From Methanofervidicoccus sp. A16 (GTDB taxonomy: Archaea; AGJL01; Methanococci; Methanococcales; Methanococcaceae): 64,000 bases of DNA. This document shows, one piece after another, positions 8,133-16,815 of the stretch. The stretch lies in contig NZ_CP022242.1 of the NCBI RefSeq assembly GCF_003351865.1, positions 372,001 to 436,000 of the forward strand, given 5' to 3'. Made by a program: the position numbers and the translations under genes. Positions within the stretch are counted from its first letter, which is position 1; every line of letters begins with the position of its first letter. Under the pieces are notes generated by a model. It was not told the origin of the DNA. It was given only the letters and a program-made list of their open reading frames with translations, and made no database searches.

Positions 8133-8648
8133 TTAATCAAATCTATACTTTTTAAAATACCTCACACTAACCACCATCATTACTATCACACATATTACTA
8201 CCTGAACAATAGACACAGGCACCTTAACGGTAAAAGGTTCATCTATCCTAACGCCATCTAAAACGTAATAAGGATAATACCTCCTTTCAGGATCAGCCCT
8301 TAAATTCATCCCCTCTATCCTCAAGGTGTTGCTCCCGTTATTTATACAATCTGTAACATCTATCTTTACTCTCTTCACATCCCATGTAAAACCTCTACCT
8401 CCTCCTCCAATAGTACATATTAACTTACCATTTAGATAGATCTTAACCCCCATACCTTTATCTATATTCCCGTAATGCTCAAAGGTAAGGTTGTAAGTAT
8501 AATTCTCCACCTTATCTATCTGGAAGTTGTAGGCCTTACAATTCTCTTTGTAATTTATCTTTATATAGCCAAAGTTGTAGGCGGATATTCCATCTATTAC
8601 TAAAAGGAGAATGAATACCAGTAAAACACTTCTATTCAGAGAGAGCAT
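8133..8648 (-). CDS. Secreted, membrane-anchored protein with a beta-sandwich-like ectodomain
   Basis: 171 residues. An N-terminal hydrophobic segment (about 7-23) ends in a likely signal peptidase site near SAYN. A mostly beta ectodomain contains NGSNTLRIEGMN and several asparagine sequons. A C-terminal span (about 145-162) is followed by basic RYFKKYRF, so the body faces outward. The pattern 'NG.NTLRIE' is typical of jelly-roll carbohydrate-binding folds, but I cannot name a family. It follows pyrK by 18 bp and is probably co-transcribed with hisI-pyrK, although its function seems unrelated. Confidence 0.6.
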   Translation of the reverse strand: MLSLNRSVLLVFILLLVIDGISAYNFGYIKINYKENCKAYNFQIDKVENYTYNLTFEHYGNIDKGMGVKIYLNGKLICTIGGGGRGFTWDVKRVKIDVTDCINNGSNTLRIEGMNLRADPERRYYPYYVLDGVRIDEPFTVKVPVSIVQVVICVIVMMVVSVRYFKKYRFD

Positions 8649-9947: not shown

Positions 9948-10042
9948 AATATTTATATATACTAAAAATTATAATTATTGATAAAAACATAATATAAAAT
10001 TATAATGTTTAAAATAAATGTGTTAATCATGTTGGAGGTGAT
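9948..10042 (+). promoter_or_regulatory. Promoter and strong ribosome binding site of the pilin-like gene
   Basis: A consensus-like TATA element ATTTATATAT (9951-9960) with an AT-rich BRE just upstream lies about 95 bp before the ATG at 10046. GGAGGTGAT (10034-10042) is a near-perfect anti-16S match immediately before the start. Together they predict strong expression. Confidence 0.6.
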
Positions 10043-10045
10043 TAT

Positions 10046-11602
10046 ATGAAAATGTGCAAAATTAGGGGGCAGATATCTTTAGAGTTAATAATGCTGATAC
10101 TTGTAGCATTATTAGGTGCAGTTGTGGTAGGAGTTACTATACCCAATAATTTAGTTAATATAACAAGTGTAGAGGATACTAAAGAGGTGGTATTTGAGGG
10201 GTTTATAAGAGGAGGAGGTACTCCTGTATCTTTTAGTGGAGGTAACAACCCTTCAAACAGTGATACGATAGGGAATTCTAATGCTGTAGACAATTCCACA
10301 ACAATTGTAGATCACAATACTTCAAACAATGGTACAATAGACAACAATAGCACAGAGGATTCTAATACTGAAGACAATTCTACGGTAGTATTGCCAGATT
10401 TAATCCCAGTAGAATTAATAGTACAGTATGAGAATGGTAGTGAAATCACAAGATGTGGTAGATGTGGATATAGACATGGACAAAATGGCAAACAAAACAC
10501 AGGAAAGAACCACTGTCAATGTTCTCATAAACATAGGCACCACAACAATGATCAGATAGTCAAAATTATAGCAACTATTGAAAATCAGGGAGGTAATATA
10601 AGTAGTCCATTTGATGTAGCCCTGATGATAAATAACAAAATCGACCAGATAAAAACCAAATCAGACATTAACAGTAACACCTGGACTATAAAATTTGATG
10701 GTATAAAAGTATCAACTAATAAATGTTGGGGGAAATGTCACGGACGTGGAAAAGGATGTGAACATAATTGGAAAAACTGTAAAAATAAAAACTGCGATAG
10801 AGAAGTTAACTATACTTTTACAATCATTGTAGATTATTCCAATACAGTAAATGAATCTAATGAAAATAATAATAAATTATCAGTAAACTGGAATATAAGA
10901 GAAAACGGTGAAAACAGTAACAATGATAGCAATTATAATTATAATGATAATAATACAGCCATTATCATTGGAGGTAGAGCTGAAAGTCTAACTGTAATAC
11001 TTAGTGGTACTAGTGGGGTAAATATGGGATCTGGAGTAATACCAAATGCAAAATCATTATCGGGATACGTAGAAATCAATAATAAGAACATTACAAATGC
11101 TCAAAAGATATTCTTCAATGTGAAAGGAAATATATCTGGAAAAATAAATATAAATGGAAAAAGGATGTTGCATTTGGGAAACTTGTCTGAAATTGGTACT
11201 TTAAATCTGACATTAAATGGAAATTCTAGTTTGAGTATAATAAATGTACAACGAATAGAAAATATTAGAATTGATGGAATTAATGGTAGTACGAAGTTCA
11301 CAACATTAAACGCTAATATAAATACTATGGATATAGGAGGTATGAATGGAAATACAAATTTAATTTTTGATAGTGTATATATAGATATGTTAAGGATTGG
11401 TGGAATTAATGGTAAAGCAAAATTAACTATTAAAAACTCTGATATAGATAGATTGGAGATTGGTGGAATTGGTGGTAGTGCAAAACTAATTATCAAAAAT
11501 TCCTTTATAAATCATGTAGTAGTTGGTGGTGGTGTTGACTTAATAAACTCAAGACATGTGAAAATTATAAACTCCACAATCGATGGACAAAGATATGATT
11601 AA
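10046..11602 (+). CDS. Class III signal peptide (pilin-like) surface protein with CARDB-like domain, Cys/His clusters and repeat tail
   Basis: 518 residues. The N-terminus MKMCKIRGQISLELIMLIL is a class III signal peptide: basic stretch, G8, then Q9xS11xE13 and a hydrophobic helix, as in Methanococcales pilins processed by EppA-type peptidase. An Asn/Ser/Thr-rich, sequon-rich linker (about 64-115) follows. Residues about 116-285 resemble a CARDB beta-sandwich ending DYSNTVNESNENNN, interrupted by two inserts: C137, C140, C157, C159 with several His, and C227, C231, C238, C245, C250 with His. From about 430 there are four 21-residue repeats of the type LRIGGINGKAKLTIKNSDID, suggesting a beta-helix. 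Probably an assembled or anchored surface adhesin; metal binding is inferred from the clusters only. Confidence 0.78.
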   Translation: MKMCKIRGQISLELIMLILVALLGAVVVGVTIPNNLVNITSVEDTKEVVFEGFIRGGGTPVSFSGGNNPSNSDTIGNSNAVDNSTTIVDHNTSNNGTIDNNSTEDSNTEDNSTVVLPDLIPVELIVQYENGSEITRCGRCGYRHGQNGKQNTGKNHCQCSHKHRHHNNDQIVKIIATIENQGGNISSPFDVALMINNKIDQIKTKSDINSNTWTIKFDGIKVSTNKCWGKCHGRGKGCEHNWKNCKNKNCDREVNYTFTIIVDYSNTVNESNENNNKLSVNWNIRENGENSNNDSNYNYNDNNTAIIIGGRAESLTVILSGTSGVNMGSGVIPNAKSLSGYVEINNKNITNAQKIFFNVKGNISGKININGKRMLHLGNLSEIGTLNLTLNGNSSLSIINVQRIENIRIDGINGSTKFTTLNANINTMDIGGMNGNTNLIFDSVYIDMLRIGGINGKAKLTIKNSDIDRLEIGGIGGSAKLIIKNSFINHVVVGGGVDLINSRHVKIINSTIDGQRYD

Positions 11603-14169: not shown

Positions 14170-14523
14170 ATGATAGATCTGGCTAAAAAACATTTTAAAA
14201 AGGTCATAGAACTCTGTGGAGCAAACAGAGACTGTAAATACTATCCCTGTCATTTTGATAATCAAGTGTGTCTCTGGTGTTTCTGTCCCTTCTATCCCTG
14301 TTATGACGAGGAACTTGGGGAATTCGTTACAAGAAAAGATGGCAAAAAAATATGGAGTTGTGTAAAGTGCTCCTGGATACATAGGCCTGATGTTGCCTGT
14401 GAAGTTTTGAGGGAGATCTTAGAAGTTACAAAAGATAAAAATACAACAGAGGCCCTAAATGTCTTTGAGAACAGGGAGTTGCTTATGAAGATTATGAAAA
14501 GGGTTAGGGAAAAATTTCACTAG
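14170..14523 (+). CDS. Cysteine-rich small metal-binding protein (PF04071-like)
   Basis: 117 residues with ten cysteines: C16, C22, C27, C34, C37, C39, C44, C64, C67 and C77. The core CKYYPCHFDNQVCLWCFCPF and the later WSCVKCSWIHRPDVAC match the pattern of the cysteine-rich small domain (Pfam 'zf-like', PF04071), a probable metal-binding domain common in methanogens and often near cobalamin genes. A helical tail follows. GGTGT lies before the ATG. It ends 8 bp before methanogenesis marker 12, implying one operon and perhaps a joint function. Confidence 0.72.
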   Translation: MIDLAKKHFKKVIELCGANRDCKYYPCHFDNQVCLWCFCPFYPCYDEELGEFVTRKDGKKIWSCVKCSWIHRPDVACEVLREILEVTKDKNTTEALNVFENRELLMKIMKRVREKFH

Positions 14524-16109: not shown

Positions 16110-16815
16110 GGACCTGTCCACTTAACATAAACACCACCTCAGTTTATTATAATACAGAACAAATAACCTACAAAAGAAGTTCCAGTTTCTAACAGGATTT
16201 TTAGCATTAATAGAGCAGAAAAAGATCTTTACCCTCTGCTTCAGAGAAGAAAACACCGATTCTATCAAACTCCCCCGCCCAAAAGTCTGATGTTCAAAGT
16301 TTAAATTAAGACTTTTTAGAGCACTAATTAGCCATGGGGCTTTATCTATAAGGAATTTAGGCTCACCCCTACAGTACTTCAGTACTTTCTTTACAAAGGA
16401 CCTCGTAATTAGATGATTCCTTATTGTATAGACTCTCATTAAAATTAATTCATTCCTCTCAACATCTACAGCTGAATAAACGTAATAGTGCTTCCCGCCA
16501 CCTTTAACAACAGTTTCATCCACCGCTATTAGATCTCTTTCTCTTTCCTCTGTTGTAATGGATAATTCTTCTTTAAACTTATTTATCCAGTTCCAAACTG
16601 ATGTTTTTGAGACTGGATAAATCTCTGAAAGAATTCTGGCAGTCCTTCTTACTGAAGATGTCTGAATGTAGGTTGCAATGGCGAGTGTTTTAATTTCTAT
16701 GGGTATTTTGTTCCTCTTAAAGATTTTTAATTCCTTTATAATATCTTTTACTCTTAGCATAATAGTATCTTATGTACATTGTTATATATGATGTTTGTTT
16801 TATGTGGACAGGACC
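16110..16815. mobile_element. IS6-like insertion sequence, about 706 bp
   Basis: Terminal inverted repeats of 27 bp at 16110-16136 and 16789-16815 match at 22 of 27 positions (left end starts GGACCTGTCCAC, right end finishes GTGGACAGGACC). They bracket one transposase gene. The flanks (AAAAATTT on the left, GTATACAT on the right) show no 8-bp target duplication, so the copy is old, has recombined, or the duplication has decayed. Size and layout match small IS6-family elements of Methanocaldococcus. Confidence 0.82.
16122..16760 (-). CDS. IS6-family-like DDE transposase
   Basis: 212 residues. An N-terminal helix-turn-helix (SSVRRTARILSEIYPVSKTS, about 35-54) precedes a DDE catalytic core: D in LIAVDETVVKGGGKHYY, D in FLIDKAPW, and E in SLIESVFSSLKQRVK. 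The stop codon lies within the left inverted repeat, as is common in compact IS elements. The frame is intact and of normal length, so the enzyme may be active. Confidence 0.86.
   Translation of the reverse strand: MLRVKDIIKELKIFKRNKIPIEIKTLAIATYIQTSSVRRTARILSEIYPVSKTSVWNWINKFKEELSITTEERERDLIAVDETVVKGGGKHYYVYSAVDVERNELILMRVYTIRNHLITRSFVKKVLKYCRGEPKFLIDKAPWLISALKSLNLNFEHQTFGRGSLIESVFSSLKQRVKIFFCSINAKNPVRNWNFFCRLFVLYYNKLRWCLC

Follow-up and report, generated by a model that had tools for sequence, protein, structure and literature searches.

A class III signal-bearing CARDB protein of methanogenic archaea with a putative metal-binding insert and an exchangeable tail

The gene at positions 10,046-11,602 of the window (the whole stretch of 64,000 nucleotides that was analysed, from the marine, heat-loving methanogen Methanofervidicoccus sp. 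A16) is best read as encoding an archaeal modular adhesin, a pilin-like protein cut by EppA, with a metal-stabilised A-B hairpin and an exchangeable tail, a reading to which we assign a probability of about 55%. Under this reading, EppA would cut a pilin-like precursor, and the N-terminal helix would then anchor the protein in the membrane or in the pilus, where it would be incorporated into the filament as a minor subunit, probably at the tip or surface. A flexible, glycosylatable stalk would bear the CARDB sandwich and a beta-solenoid tail. C137, H161, the Cys or His at 166 and a further Cys or His that differs between species would be the ligands by which the base of the beta-hairpin formed by insert 1 binds a single soft transition metal (Zn, Ni, Fe or Cu). 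Insert 2, which shares that end of the sandwich, would either add ligands or be merely a flexible sticky loop. Such a metal site may stabilise the hairpin and/or help the protein adhere to cells or to surfaces rich in metal, and the tail would be the exchangeable recognition part.

A large class III protein and its gene

As the initial annotation had it, the protein is headed by a class III signal peptide (Table 1). Its leader, MKMCKIRG/QISLE, follows the EppA rule of Methanococcus maripaludis, which has Gly at -1, Gln at +1, Glu at +5 and a leader of 5-13 residues (PMC3875500). The match of PF04021 to residues 7-31 remained below the cut-off of 23.7 bits in hmmscan (E = 9e-4, 19.5 bits) and exceeded it, with 24.2 bits, when the genome was searched. 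The same genome encodes the EppA equivalog NF053826 (472.2 bits, cut-off 450), FlaK (NF040695) as a separate gene and, according to the PF04021 genome search, small class III pilins elsewhere, so that processing of the 518-residue protein is plausible. That class III signals normally lead small pilins had been part of the earlier description, and needs to be qualified, as large ones of 200-299 residues are already known in M. maripaludis (PMC3875500).

Table 1. Features of the gene and of the encoded protein, in window coordinates.
Feature	Position	Strand	Basis
Shine-Dalgarno-like GGAGGTGA, 5' of the ATG	10034..10041	+	Direct sequence reading
Open reading frame, 518 residues, ATG start	10046-11602	+	Open reading frame, translation
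Class III signal peptide MKMCKIRG, residues 1-8; predicted cleavage between G8 and Q9, Glu at +5	10046..10069	+	PF04021 and EppA rule (PMC3875500)
Hydrophobic pilin N-terminal helix, residues 9-31	10070..10138	+	AF2 model, helix 12-27
Asn/Ser/Thr-rich linker, residues 32-115, many N-glycosylation sequons	10139..10390	+	Composition; pLDDT <50
CARDB Ig-like domain, residues 116-285, strands A, B, C, C', E, F, G, two inserts	10391..10900	+	PF07705; Foldseek 3idu/2kl6
Insert 1, residues 134-168, A-B loop, CxxC...CxC and histidine run	10445..10549	+	AF2 strands, profile alignment
Ligand-like conserved positions: C137 (10454-10456), H161 (10526-10528), H166 (10541-10543)	10454..10543	+	Column counts, shuffle control
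Insert 2, residues 223-251, E-F loop, five Cys, positions not conserved	10712..10798	+	AF2 strands, column counts, shuffles
Beta-solenoid-like tail, residues 309-518; swapped or fastest-diverging part	10970..11599	+	AF2 short strands, divergence
Four 21-residue repeats, residues 412-495, 6-12/21 identical pairwise	11279..11530	+	Pairwise comparison

The AF2 model of the window protein, calculated from an alignment of 10 rows only, has pLDDT values below 50 over residues 24-112, and the N-terminal helix is its sole ordered pilin part. N-glycosylation sequons number 20 in the whole protein, against a mean of 11.8 after shuffling. The protein had no match in NCBIfam or in PHROGs, and no relative of it was found on the viral contigs searched. 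A DNA-level artefact was rejected, since nine genomes keep the frame open and dN/dS in the inserts is below 0.4 in the nearest pair.

Profile searches of 394 genomes, in which the class- and phylum-level searches returned the same 36 genomes, found the insert-bearing CARDB in nine, always as a single copy: three genomes belong to the genus of the window, and the other six to a single genus in the same order and a different family. The rest of the 394-genome sample, including the other genera of the window's own family, yielded no insert-bearing CARDB. A class III signal precedes the insert-bearing CARDB in all nine, and is present in all ten members of the alignment. The four other CARDB proteins of the window's genome start with Sec-type signals, and the other CARDB domains of the order, some of them at N-terminally cut loci, are without both inserts.

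The neighbours of the gene in the window are phosphoribosyl-AMP cyclohydrolase, UPF0114 and CbiJ, and within the window the gene does not lie in a pilus operon, which speaks against the preferred reading, as does the fact that the large pilin-like proteins of M. maripaludis are dispensable for piliation (PMC3875500). In four genomes of the other genus, the gene lies next to genes for another class III protein, a small pilin-like protein and a surface protein with multiple PKD domains; divergently arranged loci of this kind (L077:4432-10772, L078:1-6253 and L080:1-6374) combine two or three class III-like proteins with a multi-PKD protein of the surface, about 1000 residues long. Three further genes of the window were recorded on their own account: a conserved cysteine-rich protein of 117 residues (14170-14523; PF04071, 92.9 bits), found near cbiJ in several relatives; an IS240-type DDE transposase (16122-16760), a relative of which lies next to the adhesin gene in L086; and a secreted-looking protein of 171 residues (8133-8648) that has no Pfam match and is conserved in L085.

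Two inserts in a CARDB domain and their cysteines and histidines

The CARDB-like sandwich with two inserts that had been described from the sequence is borne out. PF07705 alone fell below its cut-off of 22.7 bits in the window protein (E = 3e-4, 21.4 bits) and exceeded it when summed over neighbouring stretches of the frame (29.8 bits), and it reached 46.4 bits in the relative L003. The top Foldseek matches were 3idu and 2kl6, both of the CARDB of PF1109, with TM values of 0.63-0.83 to the target for 3idu. Finally, the AF2 strands follow in the order A (119-128), B (170-180), C (189-195), C' (198-205), E (212-222), F (252-262) and G (277-285). Because the inserts fall between the corresponding strands of this model, they were placed in the A-B and E-F loops. 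By profile alignment, insert 1 takes up about 43 positions against 10 residues in the solved CARDB 2l0d, and insert 2 about 31 against about 4. In an Ig-like fold, one end of the sandwich carries both the A-B and the E-F loop.

In the window protein, neither insert reaches a pLDDT of 50. A model of the L003 CARDB domain made from nine aligned sequences shows insert 1 as a hairpin (18-27/35-41), with a pLDDT of 87 at its end, the block that contains the conserved His. The low pLDDT of the hairpin tip and of the whole of insert 2 (below 50 here too) counts against the preferred reading.

The CxxC...CxC and histidine run of insert 1 and the five cysteines of insert 2, as first described, were confirmed. 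Cysteines occupy positions 4, 137, 140, 157, 159, 227, 231, 238, 245 and 250, and the histidines of the inserts positions 144, 156, 161, 163, 165, 166, 232 and 240. As Cys4 leaves with the signal peptide, the mature protein has nine cysteines, all of them within the inserts. Cys and His together make up 17 of 71 insert residues and 5 of the 447 outside (hypergeometric p = 5e-12 for the window protein), and the same enrichment recurs in each of the nine members, with p values of 2e-3 to 8e-15.

The two inserts differ in how these residues are conserved. The position of C137 holds Cys in seven of the nine members and that of H161 His in all nine, and position 166 is Cys in seven and His in one, which makes Cys or His in eight, with neither in L008. 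Where a zinc-ribbon or zinc-knuckle site would have two fixed pairs of Cys/His ligands at the base of a hairpin, three Cys/His positions of insert 1 are conserved and a fourth differs between relatives; the hairpin was modelled in L003 only. As a control, the insert residues were permuted within each of eight sequences and realigned, and columns with at least six Cys/His were counted. The observed count was reached in 1 of 300 shuffles for insert 1 and in 47 of 300 for insert 2, in a control that leaves the kinship among the sequences in place. Conservation of the Cys/His positions among homologues, on which the initial annotation had staked its proposal, therefore stood for insert 1 and failed for insert 2, which retains its composition alone and is variable and partly of low complexity: its cysteines range from five down to none, two relatives having none, and some relatives carry dipeptide-like repeats (YRYRYGYGDGY, HQYQNHG). 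Between the window gene and L002, which form the nearest pair, dN/dS was 0.21 in insert 1 and 0.37 in insert 2, against 0.67 in the B-E core and 0.62 in the tail, values that are rough because the regions are short. In this pair the inserts are under purifying selection.

Part of this pattern would also be expected if the inserts were polar, flexible and hypervariable loops for recognition or glycosylation, whose Cys and His have no specific ligand function. The repeats of insert 2, its lack of positional conservation and its low pLDDT fit such loops, as does an enrichment in Q, N, H and Y in several members. However, the invariant His and the near-invariant Cys and Cys/His positions of insert 1, the enrichment of Cys and His in every member, and the stronger constraint on the inserts than on the B-E core in the nearest pair argue against this explanation, which we consider improbable. 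Insert 1 is probably metal-binding in character, to judge from its residues, and C137, H161 and the Cys or His at 166, seen across two families, would form the putative site. The proposal that the inserts are metal-binding segments is upheld to this extent, and insert 1 alone carries it. Against the metal site weigh the variable fourth ligand, L008 with neither Cys nor His at 166, and L013, which keeps the invariant His and has one Cys in both inserts combined.

The same cysteines might instead crosslink the two protruding loops in disulfides at high temperature, the histidines being incidental. The strand order, which brings both loops to one end of the sandwich, makes such crosslinks geometrically possible, insert Cys totals are even in four members (6, 4, 8 and 8), and disulfides have been proposed for cysteine-rich pilus components of Thermoproteales (PMC4858521). 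Five of the nine members, however, have odd totals, with nine in the window protein and in L002, three in L005, seven in L008 and one in L013, and what is invariant is a His rather than a Cys. The habitat of hydrothermal methanogens, strongly reducing and sulfidic water, also tells against disulfides, and we regard them as an unlikely explanation. It is because of the odd Cys counts, the invariant His and the exchange of Cys and His at position 166 that a soft-metal site is favoured over a pure disulfide arrangement.

The initial annotation had also entertained an Fe-S cluster or heme in the inserts, and with it a pilus tip for extracellular electron transfer. The clustered CxxC and CxC motifs of the window protein and its pilin-like carrier had invited this idea, which we find scarcely credible. 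The window protein lacks CxxCH, and no fixed set of four Cys exists across its relatives; the CxxC of insert 1 reads CxxY in the nearest relative, L002, and is absent in most; the Cys-poor L013 keeps the signal peptide and the insert-bearing CARDB; and no redox gene is linked across relatives. The Fe-S/heme reading was rejected, as the conserved ligands are missing, and electron transfer is likewise not supported.

Module presence and tail replacement among relatives

The tail, which had been called beta-helix-like, does consist of regular short strands in the AF2 model, with pLDDT values of 69-93 in blocks of 10 residues from residue 311. The description of its four repeats as near-identical did not survive pairwise comparison, in which they share 29-57% of their residues, and we regard them as solenoid repeats. 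DUF2807 (PF10988) matched the tail of L007 weakly (residues 136-243, E = 6.5e-4, 19.9 bits against a cut-off of 24.2) and did not match the tail of the window protein itself, and a match of the tail to the leucine-rich repeats of InlJ (E = 2e-4) was set aside as one between repetitive sequences. The viral fold library yielded nothing with E <0.001, and there is thus no sign of a viral origin for the tail.

The CARDB module and the tail differ between relatives. At the same site upstream of cbiJ, L085 (4599-5465) has signal, linker and tail and lacks the CARDB domain, and the CARDB domain is also absent from L086 (4659-6233), at the site held by L077 and L078 in their genomes. Between L083 (2468-4009) and L080 (4764-6374), DNA identity is 95-99% across the CARDB module, drops to 52-65% in the tail and is back at 82-99% downstream; with flanks about 95% identical around a divergent tail, the tail has been replaced. 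The window and L084 share 76-91% before the tail and about 60-64% in its first part; large gaps lie in between, and identity in the neighbouring genes is 81-94%. Between L077 and L078, it is the linker and the first half of the CARDB domain that diverge instead. No silent tail copies were found in the window genome, where the search gave one match.

A further reading takes inserts and tail together: the A-B hairpin and the E-F loop would make up one composite soft-metal site, at the outward-facing end of the pilin-borne domain, that binds metal-sulfide minerals (or passes electrons to them), and the tail would be swapped by recombination between species so as to change the partner recognised, which would make the protein a diversifying pilus adhesin dependent on metal. 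We think this quite unlikely. The preferred reading, with a metal-stabilised hairpin and an exchangeable tail, is the one compared below with systems already described.

Comparison with known systems

Solved CARDB domains of Pyrococcus furiosus PF1109 (3idu, 2kl6) and Methanosarcina acetivorans MA_4588 (2l0d) share the Ig-like fold according to Foldseek and profile comparison, and 3idu is titled as a di-metal complex; these domains differ from the one described here in being without the inserts and their Cys/His clusters. For the tail, a likeness in repetitive beta architecture is found in DUF2807 (PF10988), the beta-helix of head GIN adhesins. The VARTIG proteins of Thermococcales are likewise archaeal surface proteins whose Ig domains are related to CARDB and whose C-terminal region recombines, but they are far larger, belong to dedicated variable islands, and have been reported with neither a class III signal nor Cys/His inserts (PMC8416519).

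Within the same order, MMP0600, MMP0601 and MMP0709 of M. maripaludis obey the same signal rule, are larger than ordinary pilins, although shorter than the present protein at 200-299 residues, and are encoded outside the main pilus cluster (PMC3875500). Methanocaldococcus villosus, also of this order, adheres to black smoker material, an ability ascribed to its flagella (PMC5871681).

A parallel in plan comes from bacteria, where modular pilins with metal-dependent adhesion are already known. In PilB and PilC of Streptococcus sanguinis, too, an adhesion-type module is grafted onto a pilin N-terminus that has a class III signal; in PilB this is a vWA module with a metal-binding MIDAS, and such modular pilins are thought to sit at the pilus tip (PMC8179133). 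The present protein has the same modular plan, in that a class III pilin N-terminus is joined to modules that are not specific to pili (the CARDB domain and the beta-solenoid tail). It differs in its archaeal class III signal (PF04021), in carrying CARDB and a beta-solenoid instead of vWA or lectin modules, in that no globular pilin domain is seen ahead of its linker, and in that its putative site would hold a soft metal through Cys/His, in contrast to the oxygen ligands for Mg/Mn in PilB. If the preferred reading is true, the protein would be a counterpart, from heat-loving archaea, of the bacterial modular pilins, built on Cys/His and not on oxygen ligands and with a tail replaced between close relatives. 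It would then show how these methanogens diversify their attachment to surfaces, and offer a testable candidate for the attachment of such cells to vent surfaces rich in metal.
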